Below, piece after piece: positions 40,369-56,725 of a stretch of DNA of 57,929 nt (position 1 is the first letter of the stretch; each line of letters opens with the position of its first letter). A model generated the notes under the pieces. It did no database searches. It had not been told where the DNA came from and worked only from the letters and a program-made list of their open reading frames with translations. The stretch comes from Capnocytophaga leadbetteri (lineage in GTDB: Bacteria > Bacteroidota > Bacteroidia > Flavobacteriales > Flavobacteriaceae): the NCBI RefSeq assembly GCF_003054025.1, contig NZ_QBKG01000013.1, positions 1-57,929 of the forward strand, in the 5' to 3' direction. A program made the position numbers and the translations under genes.

Positions 40369-41457
40369 ATGAACTTAACACCTGATTTAGAAAAACGATA
40401 TACCACCGAACAGCAGTCAGCCCTTGAGGCACAACGTTTGGCTCAGCAGATTGCGTTTGCTCCTATTGCGTTTCAAGTGTCGCGGTTAATGGTAAAACTC
40501 GGCGTTTTTAGTGTCTTATCAGAAACTTCTGAAGGGCTCACTCTCACCCAAATAGCTGAAGCTACTAAGTTGAGTGCTTATGCGGTGCAAATACTCTTAG
40601 AAGCCTCTTTATCAATAGGCACAGTGATAGTGCACAATGACCGCTTTTTGCTAACCAAAGCAGGTTGGTTTTTACTGCGCGACAAGACTACGCAGGTGAA
40701 TATGGACTTTGTGCAAGAGGTGTGCTACTTAGGGTTGAACCATTTAGAGGAGGCTCTTATAGAAGGCAAACCAGCAGGTCTAAAAGTCTTTGGTTCTTGG
40801 CCTACTATCTACGAAGGACTTTCAAAGTTGCCCGCTGAGGCACAACAGAAATGGTTTGCTTTTGACCATTATTATTCCGATTACTCTTTTGCCGATGCCC
40901 TAAATCTCATTTTCAAAGAGGAAGTGCATACCCTCTTAGATGTAGGTGGCAATACGGGACGCTTTGCGCTGTGCTGTGTTGATTTCAATCCTAAAGTGCA
41001 AGTGACCATTATGGATTTGCCCCAACAACTCAGCCTTATGCAAGAACATATAAAGGGCAAAAAAGGAGCAGACCGTATTTATGCTTACCCTGCTAATCTA
41101 CTAGACCCTGCAGTGCCTTTCCCTACAGGTTTTGATGTGATATGGATGAGTCAGTTTTTAGACTGTTTTTCGCCTGAAGAGGTAACAAGCATACTAAAGC
41201 GTGCGGCGGCGGCGATGACTGCTGATAGTAGCTTGTATATACTCGAAGCCTATTGGGATAGGCAGCAGCACGAAACAGGAGCTTATTGTCTAACTCAGAT
41301 AAGTGTGTACTTTACAGTTATGGCAAACGGCAATAGCAAGATGTACTACTCTCAAGATATGATAGATTGTGTAGAGAAAGCAGGATTAAAAGTAGAGGCT
41401 ATTTATGACCACCTTGGTAGTGGTAATAGTCATACACTTTTTAAAGTGAAACGATAA
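40369..41457 (+). CDS. SAM-dependent O-methyltransferase-like protein
   Basis: The 362-residue protein has an N-terminal winged-helix dimerisation segment (LTLTQIAEATKLSAYAVQILLEA) and a class I methyltransferase domain: LLDVGGNTGRFA (SAM motif I, about residues 191-202), DLPQQLSLM and DVIWMSQFLDCFSPEE. The layout matches plant-type O-methyltransferases (acetylserotonin methyltransferase-like), also found in aryl polyene and flexirubin pigment clusters. No pigment genes are adjacent, so the substrate is unknown. Single gene with its own promoter. Confidence 0.85.
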   Translation: MNLTPDLEKRYTTEQQSALEAQRLAQQIAFAPIAFQVSRLMVKLGVFSVLSETSEGLTLTQIAEATKLSAYAVQILLEASLSIGTVIVHNDRFLLTKAGWFLLRDKTTQVNMDFVQEVCYLGLNHLEEALIEGKPAGLKVFGSWPTIYEGLSKLPAEAQQKWFAFDHYYSDYSFADALNLIFKEEVHTLLDVGGNTGRFALCCVDFNPKVQVTIMDLPQQLSLMQEHIKGKKGADRIYAYPANLLDPAVPFPTGFDVIWMSQFLDCFSPEEVTSILKRAAAAMTADSSLYILEAYWDRQQHETGAYCLTQISVYFTVMANGNSKMYYSQDMIDCVEKAGLKVEAIYDHLGSGNSHTLFKVKR

Positions 41458-41563
41458 GAAGATATATACATCTATTATTCTGATTATTAGTTAGTTATAC
41501 ATATTGAATTGTTATTTTTTTACAAAAGTATTATTATAATTATGAAATATGCACTAAAGTATG

Positions 41564-41571
41564 TATCTTTG
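41564..41571 (+). promoter_or_regulatory. -7 box before polysaccharide operon
   Basis: TATCTTTG lies 28 bases before the ugd ATG at 41599. The -33 region has only TATG near 41541, so the match is weaker than for other promoters. Confidence 0.5.
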
Positions 41572-41598
41572 TCGCAAATTTTTTTATAATACCGATAA

Positions 41599-42918
41599 AT
41601 GAATATAGCAGTTATTGGTACAGGCTACGTAGGTTTAGTGTCAGGTACTTGTTTTGCTGAAATGGGTAATAAAGTAACTTGTGTGGATGTAAATACTCAG
41701 AAGATAGAGAAACTTAAACAAGGTGTTATTCCTATTTATGAACCTGGATTAGAAGAAATGGTACTGAGCAATATAGCTCGTAAAACGCTTTTCTTTACCA
41801 CTGATATTGCTGAAGCTATTAAAGAGGCTGAAGTAGCTTTTATAGCGGTAGGTACCCCTATGGGTGATGACGGTTCAGCCGACCTGCAATACGTGCTTTC
41901 GGTAGCCCAATCTATAGGCGAAACGATGCAAGGTGAACTTATAATAGTTGATAAATCAACCGTGCCAGTAGGAACTGCAGATAAAGTACGTGCTACTGTG
42001 CAAGCCGCTTTAGACAAACGCGGAGTGAATTATAAATTTCACGTGGTGTCAAATCCTGAGTTCTTGAAAGAAGGTAAGGCTATTGAAGATTTTATGAAGC
42101 CTGACCGCGTGGTTATAGGAGCGGATAGTGAATACGCTTTCAAGAAGATGAAAGAGCTTTACAATCCGTTTTATATGCAAAACGACCGAATGATTACAAT
42201 GGATATTCGTTCGGCTGAGATGACTAAATACGCTGCCAATACAATGTTGGCTACCAAAATATCGTTTATGAATGAGATAGCTAATATTTGTGAACGAGTG
42301 GGCGCAGATGTGAATAAGGTACGCATTGGTATAGGTTCTGATAGTCGTATAGGCTATAGTTTTATCTACCCAGGGTGTGGTTATGGGGGGTCTTGCTTCC
42401 CTAAAGATGTATTAGCTCTTAAGAAATTAGCAGAAGAAGTTGGCTATAAAGCAGAACTTATAGAGTCGGTAGACAATGTAAACAATCGTCAGAAGTACAT
42501 TATAGCTCAAAAGGTGATAAAGCGATATGGTGAAGACCTCACAGGCAAGACTTTTGCCGTTTGGGGTTTGTCATTCAAACCTGAGACTGATGATATGCGC
42601 GAAGCTCCTGCTATCTATATTATTAAGGAATTGGTAAAACGAGGAGCTACGATACGAGCCTATGACCCTAAAGCGGTACACGAGGCGAAGGTATGCTACC
42701 TAAAAGACGTACCTGTAACCTATGTAGATAGTAAATACGAAGCCCTAAAAGATGCCGATGCTTTACTACTATTGACTGAGTGGAAAGAGTTTCGTATGCC
42801 TGATTTTGGAGAGATAGCTAAGCTATTAAAAGAGAAGGTAATCTTTGATGGTCGCAACCAATACAATGCTTTTGACCTGCCGAGTAAGGGATTTGAATAT
42901 ATACAAATAGGTGTCTAA
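41599..42918 (+). CDS. ugd: UDP-glucose/GDP-mannose-type dehydrogenase
   Basis: The 439-residue protein oxidises a nucleotide sugar to its uronic acid (UDP-glucose to UDP-glucuronate is the most likely). The NAD site is IAVIGTGYVGLVSG, KSTVPVGTADKVRAT lies in the middle, and the catalytic cysteine is in CGYGGSCFPKDVLAL. The C-terminal domain has AVWGLSFKPETDDMREAPA. It is the first gene of the polysaccharide cluster, 11 bases ahead of an epimerase. Exact substrate is inferred from family resemblance. Confidence 0.94.
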   Translation: MNIAVIGTGYVGLVSGTCFAEMGNKVTCVDVNTQKIEKLKQGVIPIYEPGLEEMVLSNIARKTLFFTTDIAEAIKEAEVAFIAVGTPMGDDGSADLQYVLSVAQSIGETMQGELIIVDKSTVPVGTADKVRATVQAALDKRGVNYKFHVVSNPEFLKEGKAIEDFMKPDRVVIGADSEYAFKKMKELYNPFYMQNDRMITMDIRSAEMTKYAANTMLATKISFMNEIANICERVGADVNKVRIGIGSDSRIGYSFIYPGCGYGGSCFPKDVLALKKLAEEVGYKAELIESVDNVNNRQKYIIAQKVIKRYGEDLTGKTFAVWGLSFKPETDDMREAPAIYIIKELVKRGATIRAYDPKAVHEAKVCYLKDVPVTYVDSKYEALKDADALLLLTEWKEFRMPDFGEIAKLLKEKVIFDGRNQYNAFDLPSKGFEYIQIGV

Positions 42919-42929
42919 AAAGGAGTGAG

Positions 42930-43784
42930 ATGAAAATATTAGTAACAGGAGGAGCAGGCTTTGTAGGTTCGAACCTTTGTGAAGCTTTAGCTAAAGACCC
43001 TAATAATGAAGTCTATTCATTAGACAACTATTTTACAGGTAGTCGGGATAATCACGTAGAGGGCGTTACCTATATAGAAGGTAGTACCGAACATATTTTT
43101 GAATTGATTGACTTTGTACCTAACCTTGTATACCATTTAGGAGAATATTCGCGTGTAGAACAAAGTTTTGGTGATATAGATAAGGTGTTGCTATTCAATA
43201 AGATAGGCACCTTAAAAGTATTGGAGTTCTGTCGCAAACGCCATTGTAAGTTAGTATATGCTGGGAGCAGTACTAAGTTTGGTGATGGGGGATTAGGAAA
43301 AGACCAGAGTCCGTATGCGTGGAGCAAATCGTCTAATACTGAGCTTATAAAGAACTATGGCAATTGGTATGGATTAGAGTATGCTATTGTATATTTTTAT
43401 AATGTATATGGTAAGCGTGAGATACGTACAGGCAAATATGCCACTCTTATTGCGCTTTTCACCGAAAAAATGAAGAAAGGAGAACCCCTGACCGTAGTAA
43501 GCCCCGGTACGCAACAGCGCAATTTTACCCATATAGACGATATAGTTGATGGATTGCTATTAGTAGGACAAAAAGGCAAAGGTGATGGGTATGGCATTGG
43601 TAGTCCTGAGACTTATACGGTATTAGAAATTGCTCACTTATTTGGAGGTGAGATACAGATGCTACCAGAGCGAAAAGGCAACCGTATGACTGCTGAAGTA
43701 GTTACTAAAAAAACAGAAGCGCTTGGCTGGAAAGCTAAGAGACATATAAAAGAATTTATTGAAGAGGAAAAACATTGTCTATAA
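42930..43784 (+). CDS. NAD-dependent sugar epimerase/dehydratase
   Basis: The 284-residue protein is an extended SDR: GGAGFVGSNL (NAD motif) at the start, GSSTKFGDGG and the YAWSK (YxxxK) catalytic pair. It is similar to UDP-sugar 4-epimerases such as UDP-glucuronate epimerases, but short. Following ugd, UDP-glucuronate or UDP-galacturonate metabolism is plausible; the exact reaction is not known. Only 6 bases separate it from the ferredoxin-type reductase. Confidence 0.85.
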   Translation: MKILVTGGAGFVGSNLCEALAKDPNNEVYSLDNYFTGSRDNHVEGVTYIEGSTEHIFELIDFVPNLVYHLGEYSRVEQSFGDIDKVLLFNKIGTLKVLEFCRKRHCKLVYAGSSTKFGDGGLGKDQSPYAWSKSSNTELIKNYGNWYGLEYAIVYFYNVYGKREIRTGKYATLIALFTEKMKKGEPLTVVSPGTQQRNFTHIDDIVDGLLLVGQKGKGDGYGIGSPETYTVLEIAHLFGGEIQMLPERKGNRMTAEVVTKKTEALGWKAKRHIKEFIEEEKHCL

Positions 43785-43790
43785 TATATT

Positions 43791-44780
43791 TTGAACCAGT
43801 ATACTATATATTTAAAAAATAATAAATCTTATACTTGCGATGAGAATACCTCTTTGCTAAGAGCTGCTTTAGAAAATGATATTAGCTTAGAGTATTCGTG
43901 TTTTGAGGCTCGTTGTAGGAGTTGTAGAGTGAAAGTGCTTGAAGGAGAGGTAGAGAACCTACAAGATGAACAAGTACTTACCACTGAAGAGAAAGCCGCA
44001 GGCTATGTGCTGTCGTGCAATGTAATACCCCGCTCTGATATAAAATTAGCAGTAGAGGATTTAGGAGTAAAGCTGCCTAAACCCCAAGTGAGTCCTTGTA
44101 AAATAAGCAGTATTGCAACTGTTACCCCTAATATTGTAGAGGTAGTGTTGCGTTTGCCTCCTAAGGTAGATTTTCAGTTTTTAGCGGGGCAATATGTAGA
44201 TATTATCAGAAATGGACATAAGCGCAGCTATTCTATTAGTCATAGTCAGTGTGAAGGCAACCAACTAAAGCTCTTCATTCGCAATTATGAAGGGGGACTA
44301 TTTAGCAACTATTGGTTTAATGAGGCTAAGCCTAATGATTTGCTTAGAGTAGAGGGGCCTTTAGGCACTTTCTTTTACCGACATAATGAAGAGTGCACTG
44401 ATATAGTATTATTAGCTACAGGTACTGGTATTGCACCTATAAAAGCCATTTTAGAACAGCTGCAAGCCAGTCCGGAATTATTAGTTAATAAAAAAGTGTG
44501 GCTTTTGTGGGGAGGAAGAAAAAAAGAAGACTTATTTTGGAAGCCTGATTTTACCTTTGCTCATTTTGAATATATACCCGTATTGACTCGTGAGGACGAC
44601 TGGCAAGGAGCAAAAGGGTATGTGCAAGAGATAGCTTCAGCACAGGCTATCAGTTGGCCTACAGCACAAGTGTATGCTTGTGGTAGTGAGGCAATGATAC
44701 AAAGTGCTCAGGAACTTCTCACTAAACAAGGATTAAAAGAAGAAAATTTTTTCGCTGATGCATTTGTTGCAGGCAAATAA
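43791..44780 (+). CDS. CDP-6-deoxy-glucoseen reductase (DdhD/AscD-like)
   Basis: The 329-residue protein combines a plant-type [2Fe-2S] ferredoxin domain (C37, C42, C45, C76) with a ferredoxin-NADP reductase-like module. The latter has RSYSISHS (FAD) and LLATGTGIAPIKAILEQL (NAD). This is the structure of E3 (AscD/DdhD), which passes electrons to RfbH in making CDP-3,6-dideoxy-4-keto-hexoses. The start codon is TTG at 43791; no good ATG exists. The three partner genes follow directly. Confidence 0.92.
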   Translation: MNQYTIYLKNNKSYTCDENTSLLRAALENDISLEYSCFEARCRSCRVKVLEGEVENLQDEQVLTTEEKAAGYVLSCNVIPRSDIKLAVEDLGVKLPKPQVSPCKISSIATVTPNIVEVVLRLPPKVDFQFLAGQYVDIIRNGHKRSYSISHSQCEGNQLKLFIRNYEGGLFSNYWFNEAKPNDLLRVEGPLGTFFYRHNEECTDIVLLATGTGIAPIKAILEQLQASPELLVNKKVWLLWGGRKKEDLFWKPDFTFAHFEYIPVLTREDDWQGAKGYVQEIASAQAISWPTAQVYACGSEAMIQSAQELLTKQGLKEENFFADAFVAGK

Positions 44781-44816
44781 GTGATTAATTTTCAAGCAAT
44801 AAGTAGATTAATTTTT

Positions 44817-45590
44817 ATGAAAGCAGTAATTTTAGCAGGTGGTCTCGGCACACGATTGAGTGAGGAAACAGCCTTGAGACCTAAACCAATGGTAGAAATA
44901 GGAGGAATGCCTATCTTATGGCATATTCTCAAAATATATTCGCACTACGGCATCAATGAATTTATCATTTGTTGTGGTTATAAAGGCTATATCATCAAGG
45001 AATATTTTGCTAATTATTTTTTACATCAATCGGATATTACTTTTGATATGGCAAACAATGAGATGCACGTACACCAAAAACGCGCTGAACCTTGGAAAGT
45101 TACTCTTATTGATACAGGTGAGCACTCTATGACGGGGGGGCGCCTTAGAAGGGTATTGCCTTATATTGAAAATGAAGAAGCTTTTTGCTTTACTTATGGC
45201 GACGGAGTAGCTGATATTGATATTGCTAAATTAGTAGCTTTTCATAAAGCACACGGTAAGGAGGCAACCCTTACAGCAGTCTATCCCCCAGGTAGATTTG
45301 GAGCTTTGGATATAGTAAATAATCAGATTATGAAGTTCCAAGAAAAACCGAAAGGAGATGGAGCACTTATTAATGGAGGGTTCTTTGTACTATCACCTAA
45401 AGTAATAGAGCGCATAAAAGGAGATAGCACTATTTGGGAACAAGAACCGCTAAAAGGCTTAGCCACAGACGGACAGTTGATGTGTTATAAGCACGAAGGC
45501 TTTTGGCAACCAATGGATACACTCCGTGATAAAACGCTTTTGGAAGAATTATGGCAAAACAACAAAGCACCTTGGAAGGTATGGCAATAG
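44817..45590 (+). CDS. rfbF: Glucose-1-phosphate cytidylyltransferase
   Basis: RfbF (DdhA) makes CDP-glucose from CTP and glucose-1-phosphate. The start is the ATG at 44817, after an in-frame GTG upstream; it gives the normal [18 protein letters not shown] start. The nucleotidyltransferase signature LAGGLGTRL and [14 protein letters not shown] are present, followed by [10 protein letters not shown] and [12 protein letters not shown]. The length of 257 residues is standard. The 3' end overlaps rfbG by 10 bases. Confidence 0.95.
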
Positions 45591-46648
45591 GAAAAGTAGA
45601 TACTCATTTTTGGAAAGGTAAACGTGTATTTATCACAGGGCATACGGGCTTTAAAGGTTCGTGGCTATCGCTTTGGCTACAACAAATGGGTGCTGAAGTA
45701 AAGGGATTTTCGTTAACTCCACCAACAAATCCGTCTCTTTTTGTTGAGGCTAAAGTAGCACAGCAGATGCAGAGTGAGATAGGCGATATTCGCGATTTTA
45801 GCAAACTCTCGGAGAGCATACGTACTTTTAACCCCGATATATTGCTACACTTGGCAGCACAGCCTTTGGTAAGGCTTTCGTATAAAGAGCCTATCGAGAC
45901 TTATAGCACTAATGTGATGGGGACTGTGAATGTGCTCGAAGCTTCGCGCTATGCCTCGCACTTAAAAGCGATAGTAGTAATTACTACTGACAAATGTTAT
46001 GAAAACCGCGAATGGGAATGGGGCTATCGTGAAAACGAACCTATGGGCGGTCACGACCCTTATAGTAACAGTAAAGGTTGTGCCGAATTGGTAGTTTCGG
46101 CTTACCAACGGTCGTTTTTTCACACCCCTGATACAGCAGCTGTAGCCTCGGCACGTGCAGGTAATGTGATAGGTGGTGGAGACTGGGCTGAAGATAGATT
46201 GATACCCGATATTCTGCGCGCTTTTGAGAAACAGCAATCGGTAATTATTCGCAATCCGCTATCTACTCGTCCGTGGCAACACGTATTAGAACCTCTTTCA
46301 GGCTACTTAGTATTAGCACAACGTTTGTGGCAAGATGGGAAGGCTTTTGCTGAAGGTTGGAACTTTGGGCCTAAAGACGATGACTGCCAACCTGTGCAGT
46401 GGATACTTGATAAGATGGTACATTTCTGGGGAGATGGAGCGCACTATGAAATAGACAAAAGTGAACAACCCCACGAAGCTAACTTTCTGAAACTTGACTG
46501 TTCGAAAGCTGCAATGCGCCTAAAATGGCACCCAAAATGGCGATTAGAGCAAACCTTGGAGCAAATAGTTCATTGGCACCGAGCATGGCTAGAAGGAGCT
46601 GATATGCAGGTAAAATGCTTGCAAGAAATAGAGAAATACAATAATTAA
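45581..46648 (+). CDS. rfbG: CDP-glucose 4,6-dehydratase
   Basis: RfbG (DdhB) removes water from CDP-glucose to give CDP-4-keto-6-deoxy-glucose. The start is the ATG at 45581 ([23 protein letters not shown]); an earlier in-frame ATG lies within rfbF. The NAD motif is [13 protein letters not shown], with [19 protein letters not shown] and the YSNSK catalytic motif (HDPYSNSKG). About 355 residues is usual. Overlap with rfbF implies co-translation. Confidence 0.95.
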
Positions 46649-46677
46649 AACTAACAACAAAAAACACTATAATATAA

Positions 46678-47991
46678 ATGACTTTAGACACCATTAGGCA
46701 AGAAATAGCTCAATTAGTTGAAAAATATGCCCAAGAGGCTTACAAACCGAAACCTTTTGAGGGGGGTACTACTGTTATACCGCCTTCAGGTAAGGTATTG
46801 GGAGCCCAAGAACTAAAAAATATGGTGGATGCCTCGCTTGATGCTTGGCTTACCACAGGACGTTTTAACCGTGCTTTCGAAGAAAAATTGGCTGCCTTTT
46901 TAGGAGTAAAATACTGTATTACGGTAAATTCTGGTTCTTCGGCTAACTTAGTAGCCTTTAGTGCACTTACTTCTCCTAAATTAGGCGAACGTGCTATTAA
47001 AAAAGGTGATGAGGTAATAGGTGTAGCGGCAGGCTTCCCTACTACGGTGAACCCTATAATTCAGTTTGGGGCTATACCAGTATTTGTAGATGTAGACTTA
47101 CACACACATAATGTAAATGCTGACCTTATAGAACAGTCCATTACTCCTAAAACAAAGGCGATAATGCTCGCCCATACCTTAGGGAACCCTTTCAACTTAG
47201 AGAAAATAAAAGCCCTTTGTGAGAAATATAACCTTTGGCTTGTAGAAGATTGCTGCGATGCTTTGGGTGCTACCTATAACGGACAAAAAGTAGGTACTTT
47301 TGGTGATATTGCTACCCTAAGTTTCTATCCAGCTCACCATATCACAATGGGTGAAGGAGGAGCCGTATTTACTAACAATGCGGAGCTAAAAACTATAGCT
47401 GAGTCTTTCCGCGATTGGGGACGTGATTGCTATTGTGCACCAGGTTGTGACAATACTTGCAACTGCCGCTTTTCGCAACAACACGGCGATTTGCCTTTTG
47501 GTTACGACCATAAATATGTGTATTCGCACTTAGGTTACAACCTAAAAATCAGTGATATGCAAGCAGCCTGCGGCTTGGCTCAGTTAGACCGAGTAGAGGA
47601 GTTTATAGAAAAACGCCGTAAGAATTTTGCTTATCTAAAAAATAGATTGCAAACACTTACTGACTTTTTATATCTGCCAGAGGCAACCCCTAATAGTGAC
47701 CCTTCGTGGTTTGGTTTCCCTATCACCCTTAAAGAAGAATCAGGTACCGCACGGGTAGATTTGCTCCGTTTCTTAGACCAGCATAAGATAGGTACGCGAT
47801 TGTTGTTTGCGGGTAACCTTACTAAGCAGCCTTATTTTAAAGGAGTGGAATACCGTGTAGTGGGAGATCTTACTAATACTGATATTACAATGAACCAAAC
47901 CTTTTGGGTAGGTATTTATCCAGCTTTAGGAGAGGAACATTTAGAGTATATTGCTGAGAAATTAGAAGAATATTTTGGGGTGAATTTTTAG
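46678..47991 (+). CDS. rfbH: CDP-4-keto-6-deoxyglucose 3-dehydrase
   Basis: RfbH (DdhC, E1) uses a PMP cofactor and an iron-sulfur cluster to remove the 3-hydroxyl of CDP-4-keto-6-deoxy-glucose. The fold is aminotransferase-like but the usual PLP lysine is replaced: FYPAHHITMGEGG has H220, the same position as the known catalytic His of the 437-residue Yersinia enzyme. Cysteines C251, C253, C257, C261 and C263 lie in a cluster suitable for [2Fe-2S] binding. Length is 437 residues. It needs the AscD-type reductase found three genes upstream. Confidence 0.97.
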   Translation: MTLDTIRQEIAQLVEKYAQEAYKPKPFEGGTTVIPPSGKVLGAQELKNMVDASLDAWLTTGRFNRAFEEKLAAFLGVKYCITVNSGSSANLVAFSALTSPKLGERAIKKGDEVIGVAAGFPTTVNPIIQFGAIPVFVDVDLHTHNVNADLIEQSITPKTKAIMLAHTLGNPFNLEKIKALCEKYNLWLVEDCCDALGATYNGQKVGTFGDIATLSFYPAHHITMGEGGAVFTNNAELKTIAESFRDWGRDCYCAPGCDNTCNCRFSQQHGDLPFGYDHKYVYSHLGYNLKISDMQAACGLAQLDRVEEFIEKRRKNFAYLKNRLQTLTDFLYLPEATPNSDPSWFGFPITLKEESGTARVDLLRFLDQHKIGTRLLFAGNLTKQPYFKGVEYRVVGDLTNTDITMNQTFWVGIYPALGEEHLEYIAEKLEEYFGVNF

Positions 47992-48014
47992 CAGTTACGG
48001 CAGGTAAGCAGATT

Positions 48015-48920
48015 ATGAGAGTACTTTTAACAGGAGCGACAGGTTTTTTGGGGAGCCATTTGCTAAAAGCATTGGTAAGTAAGGGTTATGAAGTAGTAGT
48101 ACTCAAACGCTCTACCTCTGATATGTGGCGTTTAAAAGGTTTTGAAAACGCTTTTAAAAGCTATGATATAGATCGTGTGCCCTTGCAAACGGCTTTTGAA
48201 GAGCAGCCTATAGATATTGTTATTCATACGGCTTGGGCAGGAGTAGCTTCAACTGACAGAGGTAATTGGGAAATACAAATGGAAAACTTTTATTTCTCTA
48301 AAAAACTGATAGACTTATCTGTATTATTTAATATAAAGAAAATAATTTGTCTAGGTTCTCAAGCAGAATACGGAAATTATAATGAAAAGGTAAATGAAGA
48401 TTTTTTACCTACTCCGATAGGTGCCTATGCCTCTGTAAAACTATTTACATCTCATTATCTCAGAAATATAGCTCAGGAGCATCATATAAGCTGGTATTGG
48501 ATAAGGGTTTTTTCGATAATAGGTGAAAATGAGACCCAATCTTGGCTACTCTCTCAAGTGATAAAGAGTTTATTAGTAAACAATAGTATTGAACTTACAG
48601 AGGGAGAACAGTTTTATGATTATATGTATGTAGCTGATTTTGTTGCAGCAATAGAAAAGATACTTAATAAACATAGAGATGATTCAGGAGTTTATAATTT
48701 ATGTACAGGAATTCCAATAAAAATAAAAGATTTATTGTGTTTAATAGCTGATAAATTAGGGAAAGATAAACAATTATTGAAATTTGGAGCAATTGCTTAT
48801 AGACCAAATCAAAATATGTTTATGGTAGGGAATCCTCATAAATTTGAGAAAACTTTTGGAATTCATAATTTACAACCTTTGTCAATTATAATAGATAAAA
48901 TTATAAACTCATATATATGA
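48015..48920 (+). CDS. NAD-dependent sugar reductase/epimerase (YerF-like?)
   Basis: The 301-residue extended SDR has the NAD motif LTGATGFLGSHLL and the catalytic Tyr and Lys in GAYASVKLF. In CDP-3,6-dideoxyhexose clusters this place is filled by an abequose, paratose or tyvelose synthase, or by YerF in yersiniose clusters. Because a thiamine-diphosphate enzyme follows and overlaps by 4 bases, a YerF-type reductase of the branched sugar is the most likely role. Base composition turns AT-rich inside this gene, and this continues downstream. Confidence 0.75.
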   Translation: MRVLLTGATGFLGSHLLKALVSKGYEVVVLKRSTSDMWRLKGFENAFKSYDIDRVPLQTAFEEQPIDIVIHTAWAGVASTDRGNWEIQMENFYFSKKLIDLSVLFNIKKIICLGSQAEYGNYNEKVNEDFLPTPIGAYASVKLFTSHYLRNIAQEHHISWYWIRVFSIIGENETQSWLLSQVIKSLLVNNSIELTEGEQFYDYMYVADFVAAIEKILNKHRDDSGVYNLCTGIPIKIKDLLCLIADKLGKDKQLLKFGAIAYRPNQNMFMVGNPHKFEKTFGIHNLQPLSIIIDKIINSYI

Positions 48921-50611
48921 AAGTAACTCAGTATATAGCAAGATTTCTGAAAGATAAAGGTATTCATACTGTCTTTGAACTACAAGGAGGAATGATTACT
49001 CGCATTATAGATGCCCTTAATCAGGAAGGGGGTATAGACATAGTGAGTATGCATCACGAACAAGCTGCTGCAATGGCTGCAGACGCTTATGGCAGAATTA
49101 AAAATAAGCCAGGAGTAGCATTAGCTACAAGTGGTCCTGGAGCAACAAATCTTCTTACAGGGATTGGTAATTGTTTTTTTGACTCTGTGCCAGCTATTTT
49201 TATAACGGGGCAGGTAAATACAAATGAACAAAAAGGAGATAAATCTACTCGACAAATAGGATTCCAAGAAACGGACATAGTGGCAATGGCAGAAGCTATT
49301 ACAAAGAAGGCTTACGCTATAAAGACAAAAGATGAAATACCTAATGTTTTTGAAGAAGCTTATCAGATAGCTATGTCAGGCAGACCAGGCCCTGTGTTAA
49401 TTGATATCCCTATGAATATCCAAAATCAAGAAATAGAAGATGCTCTTGTAGAGAAACCTTTTCTTGAGAAAAATCTTACTACTTGTGATGATTTTATAAA
49501 TAAATATATAAATACATTAAAGGTCAGTAAAAAGCCTCTTTTATTAATAGGAAGAGGGATTCGTGCGGCACAAGCGTCAGAGCTTTTTAAAAAATTTATT
49601 GCTAAGTTTCAAATTCCTGTAGTAACATCATTACTAGGAGCAGATGTTTTACCTTATACTCACCCTCTTAGAGTTGGTTTTATAGGTACTTATGGAAACC
49701 GATGGGCTAATTATGCTTTAGGAAGTTCGGATGTATTATTAGTGCTTGGTAGTCGCATAGATTTAAGACAAACAGGAGCGGATATAGAAGCTTTTAAACA
49801 AGGGAAACAAATATTTCACGTAGATATAGATTCTGCTGAACTGAATAATAGGTTTACAGATACTATAACTCTTAACACTGATTTGGTAACTTTTTTTGAA
49901 GAAGTACAAAAAATAGATTATTCTTATTGTTTACCTATAGATTGGAATGCAGAAATCAAAGAAAAAAGAGAGGCATATGATGATATCTTAGAGTTGAAAA
50001 ATGTAAAGGGGATTAATCCTAATCGATTTATGCATCAACTTTCAAAGGGCTCTTTTAAAGCTAAGGGTTTCACTACTGATGTAGGTAATAACCAAATGTG
50101 GAGTGCACAATCATTAGAACTCAATGGAGACCAACTATTTCTTTCGTCAGGAGGAATGGGAGCAATGGGATATTCTTTACCAGCAGCAATAGGAGCCTCT
50201 ATAGCACTAAATAAGCAACCTATGGTATGTATTTCTGGCGATGGAGGTTTTCAAATAAATATTCAAGAATTAGAAACAGTAAAGCGGAATAATTTACCTA
50301 TTAAAATAGTTATATTGAACAATCATTGCTTAGGGATGATTAGACAATTTCAGGATAGTTATTTTGAAAGTCGTTACCAATCTACTGTTTGGGGATATAG
50401 TGCGCCCGATTTTACAGCCATAGCTCGCGCTTATGGCATAGATAGCTTTTCAATAGAAAAAGAAGAAGATATTAATATAGGATTAAATAGAATGTGGGAA
50501 GATGCCAATGCTCCGTTTTTGTTAAATGTAAATATTAATATACACACAAATGTATATCCTAAAATGTTGTTTGGAAATCCTTTAACTAAGATGGAACCTA
50601 CCATAGAATAG
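48917..50611 (+). CDS. ThDP-dependent YerE-like acetyl transferase
   Basis: This 564-residue protein has the acetolactate-synthase fold. The cofactor-activating Glu is in HHEQAAAMAADAYGR (E48), SGPGATNLLTGIGNCFFDSVP follows, and the ThDP/Mg motif is GDGGFQINIQELETVKRNN (about residues 441-459) ending NNHCLGM. In Yersinia, YerE is such an enzyme and adds a two-carbon unit from pyruvate to CDP-3,6-dideoxy-4-keto-glucose. The neighbours make exactly that sugar here, so a YerE-type role is favoured over amino-acid acetolactate synthesis. Biosynthetic AHAS would have its small subunit nearby, and none is seen. Confidence 0.82.
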   Translation: MKVTQYIARFLKDKGIHTVFELQGGMITRIIDALNQEGGIDIVSMHHEQAAAMAADAYGRIKNKPGVALATSGPGATNLLTGIGNCFFDSVPAIFITGQVNTNEQKGDKSTRQIGFQETDIVAMAEAITKKAYAIKTKDEIPNVFEEAYQIAMSGRPGPVLIDIPMNIQNQEIEDALVEKPFLEKNLTTCDDFINKYINTLKVSKKPLLLIGRGIRAAQASELFKKFIAKFQIPVVTSLLGADVLPYTHPLRVGFIGTYGNRWANYALGSSDVLLVLGSRIDLRQTGADIEAFKQGKQIFHVDIDSAELNNRFTDTITLNTDLVTFFEEVQKIDYSYCLPIDWNAEIKEKREAYDDILELKNVKGINPNRFMHQLSKGSFKAKGFTTDVGNNQMWSAQSLELNGDQLFLSSGGMGAMGYSLPAAIGASIALNKQPMVCISGDGGFQINIQELETVKRNNLPIKIVILNNHCLGMIRQFQDSYFESRYQSTVWGYSAPDFTAIARAYGIDSFSIEKEEDINIGLNRMWEDANAPFLLNVNINIHTNVYPKMLFGNPLTKMEPTIE

Positions 50612-51964
50612 ATGAGACTTATTAATAGACTTTTAAATACATTAGGAATAGATAGAGCAATACTCTATACTAGTTCTGCAAGAATTATTCAAGCAGGAGG
50701 AGGAATTATAACTCTTTTATTAATTGCAAAGTTTTTAACTAGTGAAGAGCAAGGTTATTATTATACTTTTGGAAGTATTTTATCTATGCAGATATTTTTT
50801 GAATTAGGATTTAATGGAATCCTTACTCAATATGTTGCTCATGAAAATGCAAACATCAAATCTTATATTAAATCTGATAATGATGATGAAAGAAGATTTC
50901 AATCAAGATTGTCTAGTTTATTGCATATCTATATAAAATGGTATTCTTTCTTATCAGTATTGGCTCTTATAGTACTATTAATATCTGGATTTTATTTTTT
51001 TAATAATTTTGACAATACAGATAAAATACAATGGCGATTTCCTTGGGTCGTTCTAACAATAAATGCTGTAATTACCTTTTTCTTTTTACCTTTGCTCTCA
51101 ATAATAGAGGGATTAGGGTTTGTAAAAGAAATTGCAAAATATAAACTTGTATATCAATTTATTAATATGTTCTTGCTTTGGGTATTTCTATCTGTAGGAG
51201 CTAAACTTTACTCTGCTTCTTTTGCAGGCATATGTTCATTTTTAGTTTTAATAATATTAGTTTGGAAAAAGTTTAGAACTACTCTTATACAAATATGGAA
51301 TCTTTTAGGTGAAGAAAAAATAAGCTATAAATTAGAAATATTCCCTTATCAATGGAAAATGGCACTAAGTGGAATAAGTGGTTTTTTCATTTTTCAATTA
51401 TTTAATCCTGTAGTTTTTGCTAATGAGGGAGCTGTTGTAGCGGGACAGATGGGAATGAGCCTAACACTTCTCAATGCTATTCAGAACCTATCTATGAGTT
51501 GGATAAACACTAAGGTATTTTGCTTTTCTGAATTAATAGCATTAAGAAGATATTTTGAGCTAGATAGAATATTTAATAAAGTATTAAAACAATCTGTTTT
51601 TATAAATGGATTTTTATTAGCCTTAGTATTTACAACTATTTTTATTTTTCGGGAAAGTAATATTTATATAAAAAACATTAACATTGCAGATCGTTTTTTA
51701 GACTATAGACCTATGTTTTTTCTAGCATTATCTTTATTCCTAAATCAATTTGTATTTTCTTGGGCAACTTATTTGCGCTGCCATAAAAGAGAACCCTATA
51801 TGTGGTTATCTATTATTACAGCCGTTCTATGTTTACTCTCAACTTTCTTATTGGGCAATATTTTTGGTGTTTTAGGAATTACATTTGGTTATTTTATAAT
51901 TACTGTTGGCACATTTGTAAGTGCATTTATTATATATTATAATAAAAAGAAGGATTGGCACTAA
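50612..51964 (+). CDS. Wzx-like polysaccharide flippase
   Basis: The 450-residue protein is strongly hydrophobic with about 12 predicted membrane segments, starting INRLLNTLGIDRAILYTSSAR and including FFLPLLSIIEGLGFVKEI. It fits Wzx-type flippases (MATE-like MOP superfamily) that move lipid-linked repeat units across the inner membrane. Sequences of this class diverge strongly, so assignment rests on topology and its place among glycosyltransferases. It starts right after the ThDP gene stop with no gap. Confidence 0.85.
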   Translation: MRLINRLLNTLGIDRAILYTSSARIIQAGGGIITLLLIAKFLTSEEQGYYYTFGSILSMQIFFELGFNGILTQYVAHENANIKSYIKSDNDDERRFQSRLSSLLHIYIKWYSFLSVLALIVLLISGFYFFNNFDNTDKIQWRFPWVVLTINAVITFFFLPLLSIIEGLGFVKEIAKYKLVYQFINMFLLWVFLSVGAKLYSASFAGICSFLVLIILVWKKFRTTLIQIWNLLGEEKISYKLEIFPYQWKMALSGISGFFIFQLFNPVVFANEGAVVAGQMGMSLTLLNAIQNLSMSWINTKVFCFSELIALRRYFELDRIFNKVLKQSVFINGFLLALVFTTIFIFRESNIYIKNINIADRFLDYRPMFFLALSLFLNQFVFSWATYLRCHKREPYMWLSIITAVLCLLSTFLLGNIFGVLGITFGYFIITVGTFVSAFIIYYNKKKDWH

Positions 51965-51974
51965 AATAAGTAAA

Positions 51975-52970
51975 ATGAATTATCAACAAATAACAAATAT
52001 TCCTTCTATTCCTATGAAAATAGGAAAGATAAAAGGAGCTAAAATAACAATAGCTATTCCTACTTATAAACGAGTTTCTTTATTAAAAGAAGCGATAGAT
52101 AGTTGTTTATCTCAGAGAACAGAAATCCCCTTTAATATTTTAATTGTAGATAATGACCCTCTACGAGATTCTGAAACAGAACAGCTAATAGATTCATTTA
52201 ATAATCAAAATATATCTTACTATAAAAATTCTGAAAATATAGGGGCTACGGGGAATTGGAATAAACTTTTTGAGTTGGCAGATACAGAATTTGTGACAAT
52301 GCTACATGATGATGACTTACTTGAAGAAGATTATATCGAAAAGATGACCTTAATTATAGAAAAGTATAAATCTAACATTGATGCTATTTATACAGAAACG
52401 CGTATTTTCTCTAAGAACTCTTCTCTCTCTCGGAAACAGCCAAACATATTAAGAATTATAGAAATACAGCCTTTTGATTTACAATTTTACAATATATGTT
52501 CTATAATAGGTGCTTGTTTTAAACGAGAAAAGATTATTGAATTGAATGGATTTGACAATCATTATTATCCCCCTATTGACTATCAGATGCATCTAAACTT
52601 ATCTAAACATAGTAATATAATTAAAATTATTAATTATCCTTTGACATTATATAGAATATTAGAAAATGATAGTATGAAAATGAGTACTATTTTTTCTATT
52701 AATGTAAAAGATCAAGAAATACAAAATTCTATTATTCAGAACTACCCTATTGTATATAAAAAGTTATTTCATATTTACCAGAAAAATAGAGAATTATTAC
52801 ATTATATAGGAACGAAAAGAGTTTTTGGAGTTAACAGTCCTGAGATAAATCAGAAAATAACAGAACTAAAAAACAAAATAACATTTATAGATAAATTAAT
52901 TTTCTTAGGCTGGCGTGTTTTTATAAAGTTACATTTTATCTTAAAGCCTAAAACAACTATAAAACTATGA
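51975..52970 (+). CDS. Family 2 glycosyltransferase A
   Basis: The start is the ATG at 51975 (MNYQQITNIPSIPMKIG); the longer frame would begin inside the flippase gene. The GT-A fold shows ITIAIPTYKRVSLLKEAIDS, ILIVDNDP and the metal-binding DxD-type HDDDLLEEDYI. GT2 enzymes are inverting; the sugar donor and acceptor are unknown. It overlaps the next gene by 4 bases. Confidence 0.92.
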   Translation: MNYQQITNIPSIPMKIGKIKGAKITIAIPTYKRVSLLKEAIDSCLSQRTEIPFNILIVDNDPLRDSETEQLIDSFNNQNISYYKNSENIGATGNWNKLFELADTEFVTMLHDDDLLEEDYIEKMTLIIEKYKSNIDAIYTETRIFSKNSSLSRKQPNILRIIEIQPFDLQFYNICSIIGACFKREKIIELNGFDNHYYPPIDYQMHLNLSKHSNIIKIINYPLTLYRILENDSMKMSTIFSINVKDQEIQNSIIQNYPIVYKKLFHIYQKNRELLHYIGTKRVFGVNSPEINQKITELKNKITFIDKLIFLGWRVFIKLHFILKPKTTIKL

Positions 52971-53791
52971 ATATAGGTATTTTATACATAGCTACAGGTA
53001 GATATATTACTTTTTGGGAGGATTTTTTTAAAAGTGCTGAAAAGTATTTTATAACAAGTTCCACTAAGTATTATTTTGTATTTACAGATACCCAAACACC
53101 TGTTTTGGGAGAGGACACAGGAAGAGTAACTCGTATCCATCAAGAAAAATTAGGCTGGCCGTACGACACCCTTATGCGATTCGATATTTTTCTAAAAGCT
53201 GAAAAGGAGCTTGAGCAGATGGACTATATCTTCTTTTTTAATGCTAATATGAAATTTATAGAAACAGTTGACACTTCTTTCTTACCTATTGATAAGAATC
53301 TCTTAGGAGTAAAACACCCCGGTTTTTATATGAAAAAACGCCATAGTTTTACTTATGACACTAATCCTTCATCATTAGCTTGTATGAAGCCTGATGAAGG
53401 TGAATATTATTTTATGGGAGGACTGAATGGAGGTAAGGCAAGACATTATTTACAGCTCATACATACATTAGCAGAACGAGTAAAAAAAGATATTGACAAC
53501 AATGTTATAGCATTATGGCATGACGAAAGTCATCTTAATCGCTACTTATTTGACCACAGAGAAGATGTGTTAGTACATCCTGAAGGGTACGGTGTACCAG
53601 AAGGAGACAGAAGAATCCCTAATGCTAAAATTATTATTCAGGACAAAAATCATTATCGCTTTGGCGGACATAAATGGCTAAGAGGGTTATCAGATACTAA
53701 AATAACTAAAACAGAATGGCAAATAGAAAATTTTAAGATAAGAAGTAAGAATATTGTTAAACAAATTATTTCCTTTTTTAGAAGAAAATGA
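52967..53791 (+). CDS. Family 6 (blood-group A/B-like) glycosyltransferase
   Basis: The 274-residue protein matches GT6: LYIATGRYITFWEDFFKSAE near the start, GWPYDTLMRFDIFL and FFNANMKF. N92-A93-N94 stands where animal enzymes have DxD, the NxN variant known for bacterial GT6. Further, GVKHPGFY, YFMGGLNGG, ALWHDESHLNRYL and the HPEGYG motif are family marks. GT6 enzymes attach alpha-1,3-linked galactose or GalNAc to a galactose acceptor, often one bearing alpha-1,2-fucose. Donor is not readable. It is next to a GT11 gene. Confidence 0.93.
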   Translation: MNIGILYIATGRYITFWEDFFKSAEKYFITSSTKYYFVFTDTQTPVLGEDTGRVTRIHQEKLGWPYDTLMRFDIFLKAEKELEQMDYIFFFNANMKFIETVDTSFLPIDKNLLGVKHPGFYMKKRHSFTYDTNPSSLACMKPDEGEYYFMGGLNGGKARHYLQLIHTLAERVKKDIDNNVIALWHDESHLNRYLFDHREDVLVHPEGYGVPEGDRRIPNAKIIIQDKNHYRFGGHKWLRGLSDTKITKTEWQIENFKIRSKNIVKQIISFFRRK

Positions 53792-54657
53792 AAGCAAATT
53801 ATGTATTATTTCAGGGGGGATTAGGCAATCAGCTCTATCAATTAGCCTATACTGATTTTCTTAAAAGAAATGGATATAGTAATGTAAAACTAATTACTCC
53901 TTCTAATAAAAATAAAGGAGATACAAAAGATAAAAACAAAAGACCTTTAATCACACAACTTCCTGAAAAAATAGGAATAGATTGTGTAGATTTTGGGCAT
54001 AAGTACTTTTACTCTTTTTTACAAAGACTGCCTAAGTTTCCACTTTATAAGAGCTTCCTGAGGAGATTAATAAATGTGGAAAAAGAGCCTCCTTATCAAT
54101 GGGCTATTTTTCACCCTATAACAAGAGAGAAATATCGACTAAATATTCATATTGGTTATTATCAATCGAATCTGTATATTTCGGATAGTTTTAAGCAACA
54201 AGTTGCTAAAGTTATAGAAAGTTTATCACCTAATATTAAATTTTCTATTACAAATAACGATGTGGCAATACATATTAGGCGAGGAGATTTTCTTATAGGA
54301 AATAATGCTTCAGTTTTCAATAAAATAGAGTTACCCCACTATCTGCAGGGATTAACAATACTTTCAGAAAGAATGAATATACAGAAGGTATACATATTTT
54401 CTGACGATTTTGAGGCTATAAAAGAGGATATAAAAACTATAGCAGAAAACTACGAAGTGGTTTTAGTAGAAGGACAAAGTGTTTTAGCTGATTTTGCATT
54501 ATTACAAAAATTCACAAACTTTGTGATTGGGAATAGTACATTTGCTTGGTGGGGAGCCATGCTTGCCAATGCCTCAAATGTAATAGTACCCAAAAAACCT
54601 TGGAAGATAGAGATGGAAAATATGAGTCCATATCCTGACAATTGGACAACAATATGA
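53788..54657 (+). CDS. Family 11 alpha-1,2-fucosyltransferase
   Basis: The 289-residue protein has the GT11 hallmarks: FQGGLGNQLYQLAYTDFLK near the start, AIHIRRGDFL with the GDP-fucose-binding HxRRGD motif, and FVIGNSTFAWWGAMLAN near the end. GT11 enzymes transfer L-fucose from GDP-fucose in alpha-1,2 linkage to galactose, making an H-type structure. It is coupled to GT6 by a 4-base overlap and to the polymerase gene by an ATGA overlap. GDP-fucose must be made elsewhere. Confidence 0.94.
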   Translation: MKANYVLFQGGLGNQLYQLAYTDFLKRNGYSNVKLITPSNKNKGDTKDKNKRPLITQLPEKIGIDCVDFGHKYFYSFLQRLPKFPLYKSFLRRLINVEKEPPYQWAIFHPITREKYRLNIHIGYYQSNLYISDSFKQQVAKVIESLSPNIKFSITNNDVAIHIRRGDFLIGNNASVFNKIELPHYLQGLTILSERMNIQKVYIFSDDFEAIKEDIKTIAENYEVVLVEGQSVLADFALLQKFTNFVIGNSTFAWWGAMLANASNVIVPKKPWKIEMENMSPYPDNWTTI

Positions 54658-55847
54658 GCAAACTAATAACAGAGAATATATGGGCTTTGGTAGTGTTGTT
54701 AATAGCACTACCTGTACTTTTTTTACCTTTTTCTCCTATTGTCTCTTTTATTTTTGCTTTCTCAATGCTAGTTCTATTTTCAAGCTATAATCAGCAAGTT
54801 TTACGGGTAATATTTAGTCTTATAGGTTTCTTCTCATTGACTGTTATATATGCTTCAAGAGCTTATAAAGAAGAATTAGCAATGGACTTGTCTATATATT
54901 ATGATACCTACAATCTGATATACAGAGGTTATTTTTTTGAAGCCTTATTACTATTTGGTAAGGGGGTAGAAGGGGGACTTATTGTTTTATATCGATTGTA
55001 TATAGCTATTTTTGATAAACTTACTCCCTTTGATCTAGCTTTTTTTAATATGAATCTATGCGGAATAGGTTGTATTAGTTGGTTAGAAATATATGGGCTT
55101 AAGTATGTTGAAAAAAAATATAGGGGCATTTGTATGGCTTTTTTTCTTCTTTTTTTCTCAGTGCAAATGTCAGGCTTTTTACAAAGACAAGCTTTAGCTA
55201 CTATTATTTTGCTATTTGCTATTTCACAGAAAAAAAGTAGAAATTTTTATTTACTTACGCTTTTGGCTACTTTTTTCCATATTACATCACTTGTTTTATG
55301 TGTTCTATTTAGGTATGTATTAAGAAAAGATTTTCATACAAATTCTTTCCTAAAAGTTTTTATAATAGTTCTTCTGTTTAGGGTTTCTTTTCCTTATATA
55401 GTACAACAGCTTATAGGTTTAGGGAGTATTATACCAGGAATGGAAAAACTATACCAATTTTCAGAAATCAGTTTTTCTATAGCCTCTGCAAGATATGCTA
55501 TTCTTGTAATACTTTTATTAATTATTAATGTGTTCTTTTATAAGAAGATAAATAGTTATTGGAAGAAATTTATTATTGTATCTTGTGTTTTTTACCTGAT
55601 TTTTTTAGGAATTCCTCTTTTTTCTGAAAGAATATTTTTTATTCTACTTTATTTGTATGGGTATTTCTTGTTCGTAAGTATGAAAGAACTTTCGATAAAA
55701 GTAGCGGTATTTTTCTCTTTTGTTTATTTATCTTTATTTGTAGTTGAAAAATTGAATGGATTACAAACACTATATGACCCCTTTTGGCAACGCTATCCTG
55801 TTTCTAGTATAGTTCCTTTTTATTATTTTAATCCGAAGTTATTATGA
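54654..55847 (+). CDS. EpsG/Wzy-like polysaccharide polymerase
   Basis: The start is the ATG at 54654, overlapping the GT11 stop (ATGA). The 397-residue protein has about 10 or more membrane segments and the EpsG/Wzy-type features: DLSIYYDTYNLIYRGYFFEALLLFGK (an extracytoplasmic loop) and SGFLQRQALATIILLFAIS, then FFHITSLVL. These polymerases join repeat units. Family placement is by topology and these motifs. Confidence 0.82.
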   Translation: MSKLITENIWALVVLLIALPVLFLPFSPIVSFIFAFSMLVLFSSYNQQVLRVIFSLIGFFSLTVIYASRAYKEELAMDLSIYYDTYNLIYRGYFFEALLLFGKGVEGGLIVLYRLYIAIFDKLTPFDLAFFNMNLCGIGCISWLEIYGLKYVEKKYRGICMAFFLLFFSVQMSGFLQRQALATIILLFAISQKKSRNFYLLTLLATFFHITSLVLCVLFRYVLRKDFHTNSFLKVFIIVLLFRVSFPYIVQQLIGLGSIIPGMEKLYQFSEISFSIASARYAILVILLLIINVFFYKKINSYWKKFIIVSCVFYLIFLGIPLFSERIFFILLYLYGYFLFVSMKELSIKVAVFFSFVYLSLFVVEKLNGLQTLYDPFWQRYPVSSIVPFYYFNPKLL

Positions 55848-56719
55848 TATCTGACATTCCTTTAGTAACGATTGGTATACCAGTCTATAATTCCGAAAAA
55901 TTTTTAGCACAAGCTATAAGCTCTGTGCTTAGGCAATCTTACTCTAATTTTGAACTCATTATTACCGATGATGGTAGTACAGATGCTTCAGTTTCTATTG
56001 CTCAGAGCTTTAAAGATGACCGCATCAAAGTAATTGTAGATGGTCAAAATAGAGGAATATCCTATAGGCTTAACCAACAAATAGAGTTAGCTAATGGATT
56101 TTTTTTCGCTCGAATGGATGCTGATGACATAATGCACCCTAAACGTATAGAAGAACAAGTACGTTTTATGATGGAGCACCCTCAGACAGATATAGTAGGC
56201 ACCGCTGTTTGTGTAATTGATGATAATAACGAAATTTTAGGTTATCGGAAAGCCTCTCATAAAAAGACACAAGCTGAGGCTCTACAAGGAGCAGTCTTTG
56301 TACACCCTTCTGTACTTGGCAGAACCAGTTGGTTTAAACAGCATCTTTATAAAGAAGAATTTATAGGTATGGAAGACTACGAATTATGGATTAGAACTAT
56401 AGAAAAGTCTTCTTTTGCTTATATAGACGATATACTATTATTCTATAGAGACCCTCTTAAGTTTAAACTTAAGACTTATTTGTTTAGGCAAAAACAATTA
56501 CGCAACTTTTTTAGAAATGAAGGAAAAAAATATGAGACATCTTACGTGTTAAATAAGTTAGTCTTAATTTCTTATTTAAAAAGTGTTATAGCAAGGTTAT
56601 CATCTATTTTAAATGTAGATAAATTAGTAATTAAAAAACGTAATATTCGTATTGAAACTTATGAAGTAGAAAAAAAATTACAACATATTTTATCCTTTTA
56701 TAAAAATATCAAATCATAA
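55844..56719 (+). CDS. Family 2 glycosyltransferase B
   Basis: The 291-residue GT2 enzyme shows VTIGIPVYNSEKFLAQAISSV, IITDDGSTDASVSIA and RMDADDIMHPKRIEEQ, with the second Asp cluster, and HPSVLGR. It has the N-terminal nucleotide site plus metal-binding DxD. Donor and acceptor unknown. It overlaps the polymerase gene by 4 bases. Confidence 0.93.
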   Translation: MISDIPLVTIGIPVYNSEKFLAQAISSVLRQSYSNFELIITDDGSTDASVSIAQSFKDDRIKVIVDGQNRGISYRLNQQIELANGFFFARMDADDIMHPKRIEEQVRFMMEHPQTDIVGTAVCVIDDNNEILGYRKASHKKTQAEALQGAVFVHPSVLGRTSWFKQHLYKEEFIGMEDYELWIRTIEKSSFAYIDDILLFYRDPLKFKLKTYLFRQKQLRNFFRNEGKKYETSYVLNKLVLISYLKSVIARLSSILNVDKLVIKKRNIRIETYEVEKKLQHILSFYKNIKS

Positions 56720-56725
56720 AGAATC

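Follow-up and report, generated by a model that had tools for sequence, protein, structure and literature searches.

A predicted yersiniose-type branched-sugar pathway in Capnocytophaga leadbetteri

Introduction

Yersiniose A systems such as that of Yersinia pseudotuberculosis (DdhA–D, YerE and YerF) and the homologous ddhA-D/yerE/yerF genes of Pseudomonas WCS417 follow a common order of chemistry, in which cytidine diphosphate (CDP)-4-keto-3,6-dideoxyglucose is formed, then branched by a thiamine diphosphate (ThDP) enzyme, and then reduced (PMC12247030, PMC4753412, PMC4509608). The branching enzyme, YerE, moves activated acetaldehyde from pyruvate onto CDP-3,6-dideoxy-4-keto-D-glucose (PMC12247030). 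Here we describe six genes with the same enzyme set, at positions 43791–50611 of a contig of Capnocytophaga leadbetteri (NZ_QBKG01000013.1). The whole stretch analyzed, 57,929 nucleotides, is called the window; it is a contig of a 2.64 Mb genome that is 99.99% complete. The locus differs from the known systems in its host and in its gene order, ddhD-rfbF-rfbG-rfbH-SDR-ThDP, where SDR denotes a short-chain dehydrogenase/reductase.

Yersiniose or YerE-type pathways are described from Yersinia, Burkholderia, Budvicia and Pseudomonas (PMC4753412, PMC4509608), the sugar itself having chemical evidence in only these few Gram-negative genera (PMC4753412). An in silico catalogue of more than 200 YerE-like enzymes exists (PMC12247030), and it may include the enzymes considered here. 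A 2016 paper on paulomycin called the reduction of the yersiniose branch not yet characterized (PMC4753412). We propose, with a probability of roughly 80%, that the C. leadbetteri cluster makes a yersiniose-type octose, a CDP-linked 3,6-dideoxyhexose with a two-carbon branch at C-4, destined for a capsule or lipooligosaccharide/lipopolysaccharide (LOS/LPS) polysaccharide that is assembled by a Wzx/Wzy system.

Results

The six genes all lie on the + strand, and open reading frames (ORFs), Pfam and NCBIfam identify them as a DdhD-like reductase, RfbF, RfbG, RfbH, an SDR and a ThDP enzyme. The DdhD/AscD-type NAD(P)H reductase (43791–44780) has the Pfam domains Fer2 (N-terminal, 2Fe-2S), FAD_binding_6 and NAD_binding_1, with the benzoate dioxygenase reductase 1krh as its top solved match, and would be the electron donor for RfbH. 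The glucose-1-phosphate cytidylyltransferase RfbF/DdhA (44817–45590) scores 478.5 bits with TIGR02623 (cut-off 300.25), the CDP-glucose 4,6-dehydratase RfbG/DdhB (45581–46648) 527.6 bits with TIGR02622 (cut-off 278.45), and the CDP-4-keto-6-deoxyglucose 3-dehydrase RfbH/DdhC (46678–47991) 763.3 bits with NF011936 (cut-off 423). For RfbF and RfbG, the longest ORFs start at 44781 and 45551, and we used the internal ATG codons at 44817 and 45581, which retain the full family matches. The alignment of RfbH with the solved DdhC structures 3bcx (754 bits) and 3bb8 (750 bits) covers almost the entire length of the protein. Residue 220, the position of the pyridoxal phosphate (PLP) lysine, is His in the window protein and in 3bcx, and Lys in 3bb8. 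The SDR gene (48015–48920) and the ThDP enzyme gene (48917–50611) overlap by 4 bases, the stop and start codons sharing ATGA at 48917–48920. A preliminary description of this DNA had proposed the six adjacent pathway genes, the replacement of the PLP lysine of RfbH by His-220, and the 4-base overlap; all three hold, the coordinates and identities by ORFs and family models, and His-220 by the alignment with 3bcx.

Is the ThDP enzyme YerE-like, or is it an acetohydroxyacid synthase (AHAS)? It has the three domains TPP_enzyme_N, M and C, and the column of the catalytic Glu-48 is Glu in 90 of the 90 rows counted; the AHAS enzymes IlvB, IlvG and IlvI have the same ThDP decarboxylase domains and Glu-48. 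Its top NCBIfam models are acetolactate synthase models, and with the AHAS large-subunit model TIGR00118 it scores 490.9 bits, which is under the cut-off of 538.35. As controls, a true AHAS of the genus scores 716.8 bits and two YerE-like relatives 502.6 and 482.1 bits. The best match among solved structures is 5ahk with 442 bits, followed by a plant AHAS with 319 bits. The 5ahk entry was deposited as acetolactate synthase II, and we take it to be the YerE homologue of Pseudomonas protegens (PpYerE). Twelve alignment columns show one and the same residue in all 9 AHAS and a different one in 90% or more of 81 YerE-like rows. Six additional residues precede the FQE motif in the displayed YerE-like rows, those of the window enzyme and 5ahk among them, and Phe-478 of the window enzyme, also Phe in 5ahk, stands at the position of a Trp in four of the five AHAS displayed.

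The phylogeny agrees with this division. In a quick tree of 93 rows, the window enzyme falls among 82 rows, including 5ahk, that a branch with SH-aLRT support of 100 separates from AHAS, glyoxylate carboligase and a PoxB-like protein. In a careful tree of 32 rows, the split of its group from AHAS has support of 100/100. A single clade of the window enzyme, the enzyme of a second Capnocytophaga genome (G013; the window's own genome is G000, and L labels are used for relatives and loci located in scans) and the AHAS of the genus was rejected in the approximately unbiased (AU) test, with a log-likelihood 168 lower and p-AU = 7e-6. The preliminary description had set this phylogeny beforehand as the test that could refute it; in the trees, the ThDP enzyme stands apart from AHAS, among YerE-like enzymes whose genes are linked to rfbH.

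The partners of AHAS were searched for as well. At a threshold of E 0.001, G000 and G013 both lack matches to the IlvN small-subunit family PF10369 and to IlvD (PF00920). Seven of 20 genomes of the genus contain an AHAS-like protein, with 35–36% identity to the window enzyme; the same seven contain IlvD, and six of these IlvN. The window-type enzyme is found in only two of the 20, G000 and G013, and the two proteins are 97% identical to each other. The other two TPP_enzyme_N proteins of G000 look, by their scores, like a pyruvate dehydrogenase of PoxB type (684 bits, under the cut-off of 792) and MenD (346 bits, cut-off 244). By these sequence criteria, the ThDP enzyme is YerE-like and not an AHAS: the model cut-off, the absent partners and the phylogeny lead us to reject that role, and the earlier judgment that a function in amino acid synthesis was less likely is supported. 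A separate observation is that IlvD is without a match in 13 of the 20 genomes of the genus; many species of the genus may be unable to make their own valine and leucine.

The SDR matches PF01370 and has intact motifs TGATGFLG (TGxxGxxG) and YASVK (YxxxK), together with HTAWAG and GSQAEYG. In a careful tree of 64 SDR rows, 55 ThDP-linked SDRs, that of the window included, lie on one side of a branch present in 100% of 200 bootstrap trees, and seven CDP-paratose-synthase-type SDRs lie together in 98% of them, the sets having been gathered by similarity to their own query seeds, which favors a clean split. A CDP-tyvelose 2-epimerase homologue stands beside four of these seven (G009, L157, L160 and L161). 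Of the 55 ThDP-linked SDRs, 52 have the motif HxAWxG, 52 have GSQxEYG and 51 have both, whereas each is found in 0 of the 8 others; the SDRs of the window and of G013 have both. From its position in the tree and these motifs, the SDR is the natural candidate for the role of YerF, the ketoreductase acting on the branch, and a paratose or abequose end product is disfavored.

Relatives of the ThDP enzyme were sought with a four-sequence profile in named bacterial and archaeal genomes. The scan found 114 relatives, of which 80 were kept; it used two short peptide patterns, so the counts are lower bounds and are biased to the profile's own kind. The 80 loci comprise 67 from Bacteroidota (7 of them Flavobacteriaceae), 9 from Pseudomonadota (8 Legionellaceae), 2 from Acidobacteriota and 1 each from Verrucomicrobiota and Ignavibacteriota. 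RfbF, RfbG and RfbH all occur in the fetched stretch of 51 of the 78 relatives with a ThDP ORF above 300 bits; where the flanks are complete, the number is 46 of 58. Since the three accompany 51 of the 78, the grouping of these genes is not a matter of chance. An SDR of the same kind adjoins or lies near the ThDP gene in 54 of the 78. When two viral contigs are counted, the SDR is directly upstream of the ThDP gene in 52 of 80 loci, and in 17 of these the two genes, taken from their longest-ORF starts, overlap by 4 bases as in the window.

In a sample of the phylum at E 1e-110, 5 of 395 genomes contain a relative, the window's own genome included. Two of these (G589 and G431), with 55–57% identity, lie in complete clusters, and a third (G644), with 41%, lies beside RfbF, RfbG and RfbH. 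The family sample at the same threshold gave 1 of 299, the window's own genome. Sampling at the level of the class, centred on a Legionella genome, yielded at E 1e-105 only that genome among 369. Plasmid records at E 1e-90 gave 5 matches, all annotated as acetolactate synthase, and phage records at E 1e-60 gave 16; among the 15 listed, the annotated ones are named acetolactate synthase and the rest are unannotated. E. coli genomes have no DNA match to rfbH. Six relatives are on viral contigs, one of them (L137) in an rfbF-rfbG-rfbH-ThDP-SDR cluster; only L138 of the other five entered the tree. The genes are thus thinly but widely distributed over Bacteroidota, in Flavobacterium, Pedobacter, Mucilaginibacter and others.

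Some of these loci have features of their own. The ThDP enzyme of L137, which is filed as a viral contig, has 44% identity to that of the window, and the contig may be a misfiled bacterial one or a mobile polysaccharide cluster. Among the Legionellaceae loci (L076, L080, L081, L084, L091 and others), several have the ThDP gene near RfbF and RfbG, with a weaker RfbH homologue and no matching SDR found close by. In two Bacteroidota metagenome-assembled genomes, the RfbH ORF has an in-frame N-terminal PemK/MazF-like domain (L060:5795–7390 and L064:5207–6835; scores of 24.3 and 24.7 bits against a cut-off of 23.1), so that a toxin–antitoxin-type domain seems to have been fused to the sugar dehydratase. 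Three clusters of Bacteroidales type have a short reductase of 224–231 amino acids between rfbH and the SDR (L060:7394–8083, L061:7380–8054 and L066:7391–8086), in which no Fer2 domain was detected and which apparently replaces the 2Fe-2S DdhD. In a Flavobacterium reductase (L053:12081–13109), the Fer2 domain is C-terminal instead.

Within Capnocytophaga, RfbH is found above the cut-off in four of the 20 genomes (G000, G009, G013 and G018). All four have ddhD-rfbF-rfbG-rfbH, with protein identities to the window of 80–99%, and then diverge in what we call the end module. G000 and G013 have the SDR and the ThDP enzyme. C. ochracea (G009) has at the same place in the locus a CDP-tyvelose module, that is, a paratose-synthase-type SDR and the CDP-tyvelose 2-epimerase RfbE, which matches 9rl0 with 547 bits; a C. 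ochracea epimerase/dehydratase is also listed in what appears to be a tree legend of PMC7851689. No ThDP gene is present in the fetched stretch of G009, and no window-type enzyme in its genome. G018 shares the core up to the rfbH stop and then has an RmlC-like epimerase, at 154.0 bits with TIGR01221 (cut-off 155.75) and with the putative epimerase 5buv as top solved match, and a different SDR; from this gene pair, the module is probably of the ascarylose type.

The DNA of the core is 79–87% identical to the window in G009, 83.6% in G018 and 94.8% in G013. Homology between the window and G018 ends at the rfbH stop codon (47990). With G009, blastn gives 83% identity over 48007–48235, about 221 bases of the SDR gene, and the next match begins only at 50637. 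The 5′ part of the SDR gene (48015–48235, + strand) is thus common to the window and C. ochracea, with an apparent recombination breakpoint at about 48235, where the G+C content drops from 39.4% to 28.8%, a sign of a junction that is independent of the break in homology. By comparison with G013, the SDR and ThDP genes are 97.3% identical over 2,588 bases, the UDP-glucose dehydrogenase gene (ugd) is 82% identical, and the flippase gene has no DNA match. From this difference, the SDR and ThDP genes appear to have moved together as a pair.

The neighboring genes, also on the + strand, are those of polysaccharide synthesis. Upstream of the core are a UDP-glucose dehydrogenase-like gene (TIGR03026, 479 bits, cut-off 189.8) and an SDR sugar epimerase gene (PF01370) at 41599–43784. 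Downstream, at 50612–51964, is a Wzx-like O-unit flippase (NF041503 WZX_like, 95.2 bits, below the cut-off of 300, with no Pfam match), and at 51921–57847 Pfam and NCBIfam identify glycosyltransferases of families GT2, GT6 and GT11, an EpsG-type Wzy candidate (54642–55847), a further GT2 and a Glycos_transf_1 protein. Promoter and terminator scans gave numbers near the shuffle level (60 vs 70.9 promoters and 11 vs 9.3 terminators). The GT6 and GT11 genes adjoin at 52967–54657 (Gltr_6, 287.3 bits, cut-off 250; PF01531, 77.9 bits). We take GT6 to be the family to which the ABO blood-group enzymes belong and GT11 the α-1,2-fucosyltransferase family; together the two could give this polysaccharide an epitope of blood-group type.

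Discussion

The reactions of the RfbF, RfbG and RfbH/DdhD families are established. RfbF would give CDP-glucose, which RfbG would convert to the 4-keto-6-deoxy sugar; RfbH, acting with its DdhD-like partner, would remove the 3-hydroxyl to give CDP-4-keto-3,6-dideoxyglucose, as the family matches suggest. Kinship, synteny and the alignment features suggest that the YerE-like enzyme would next decarboxylate pyruvate and add the acetyl unit to C-4. The SDR would then reduce the acetyl branch to 1-hydroxyethyl, and a glycosyltransferase would transfer the branched sugar into a Wzx/Wzy-type polysaccharide. The SDR and the ThDP enzyme would thus form one module, occupying the place of the tyvelose- or ascarylose-type modules in the sister species.

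A number of observations weigh against this proposal. The product, the donor and the stereochemistry are predictions from gene content and homology. The enzyme taken as PpYerE, 5ahk, stands in for Yersinia YerE, so that the likeness to the Yersinia YerE and YerF sequences is an indirect one; that identity is itself our assumption, and 5ahk has only 42.6% identity to the window enzyme. JanthE, for which as for PpYerE a structure exists (PMC12247030; PDB code 8rph, PMC12188165), is YerE-like and yet scores only 273 bits with the window enzyme, under many AHAS entries; this low match shows the YerE-like class to be diverse. When the window and G013 enzymes were held together with all nine AHAS rows, the AU test did not reject the constraint (log-likelihood 4.0 lower, p = 0.19). 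We read this as ambiguity in the rooting, with the AHAS root among the YerE-like branches, rather than as AHAS kinship, because the constraint can be satisfied by moving the AHAS root onto the stem of the window enzyme. RfbF, RfbG and RfbH are all absent from the fetched stretch in 14 of the 78 relatives, an SDR of the window's kind is missing near the ThDP gene in 24 of the 78, and the remaining relative from the phylum sample (G613, 38% identity) lies outside any rfbH cluster. The seeded gathering of the SDR sets belongs here also, as does ErwE, a member of the same class that takes longer donors (PMC12247030), with the consequence that a longer branch is possible in C. leadbetteri.

Such a longer or functionalized 2-keto acid donor would leave most of the pathway as proposed and give a branch of more than two carbons, like those of erwiniose or caryophyllose. 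Two YerE-like enzymes, ErwE and MMAR_2332, have a preference for hydroxy-keto acids of greater length (PMC12247030), and the distance of the window enzyme from 5ahk leaves room for a different donor; no gene for making a special keto acid was recognized among the annotated genes at 40369–57847, however, and the single SDR partner suits a two-step addition and reduction of an acetyl group. We consider this outcome unlikely. It is very unlikely that the SDR is instead a 4-ketoreductase, a CDP-paratose or abequose synthase making an ordinary 3,6-dideoxyhexose, with some other role for the ThDP enzyme. The SDR belongs to the same superfamily as these synthases, and its first 74 codons or so are those shared with the paratose-synthase-type gene of G009 at 83% DNA identity, but in the tree it sits with the ThDP-linked SDRs, away from the seven of paratose-synthase type, it has the two motifs that the others lack, and its gene overlaps the ThDP gene and is found together with it in G013.

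Nor do we give much weight to the possibility that an intact cluster stays silent, or is in decay, and that no branched sugar is made: all ORFs of the window are open, as are those of G013, and the conservation between the two genomes extends over both the core and the SDR–ThDP pair. An AHAS for valine and leucine synthesis would account for the acetolactate synthase models that head the NCBIfam matches, for the name under which 5ahk was deposited and for the AU result with all AHAS rows. It is hardly tenable in view of the score below the cut-off, the missing IlvN and IlvD matches in a nearly complete genome, the insertion before FQE, Phe-478 in place of the usual Trp, and the phylogeny. We thus retain the two-carbon, yersiniose-type branch as the predicted product.

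How new would this sugar be? We found no branched 3,6-dideoxyhexose from Bacteroidota in the open-access papers searched, which is weak evidence of absence, with subscription chemistry journals outside its scope. The dideoxyhexose of Tannerella forsythia is digitoxose, and a 361-Da residue is left without identity in the part of that paper describing it (PMC4030854). A Zunongwangia paper has dideoxyhexose only within the title of a reference (PMC9470727), and the text of PMC8698959 does not contain "dideoxy". Capnocytophaga canimorsus 5 is reported to have a Wzx/Wzy-dependent capsule and a LOS with N-acetylfucosamine (FucNAc), N-acetylquinovosamine (QuiNAc) and galacturonic acid (GalA)-type sugars (PMC5156936); "dideoxy" is absent from the main text of that paper. 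The preliminary description had held that a branched dideoxysugar would be unusual in Flavobacteriia. This stands as far as the small number of genomes in the phylum and family samples and the literature are concerned; the genes are not unique to this genome, with most of the located relatives in Bacteroidota and seven in Flavobacteriaceae.

What is new is the presence of three different end modules on one core among four Capnocytophaga genomes, and no earlier report of such a three-way exchange was found in our searches of open-access papers on Capnocytophaga. We suggest, at about even odds, that Capnocytophaga swaps branching, tyvelose and ascarylose-type end modules on a fixed ddhDABC core, with recombination at the SDR gene or a short way into it, and that the branched octose is the first known from Bacteroidota.

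If our proposal is correct, a yersiniose-type sugar is to be expected in this genus of oral commensals, some of which are opportunistic pathogens, and also sporadically among numerous genera of Bacteroidota. The 80 located relatives would add to a class of ThDP carboligases that is of interest for making tertiary alcohols, and the SDR group defined here provides candidates for the reduction of the branch. The surface sugar looks swappable between related bacteria, and with three end modules on one platform within one genus, such switching would be directly testable.

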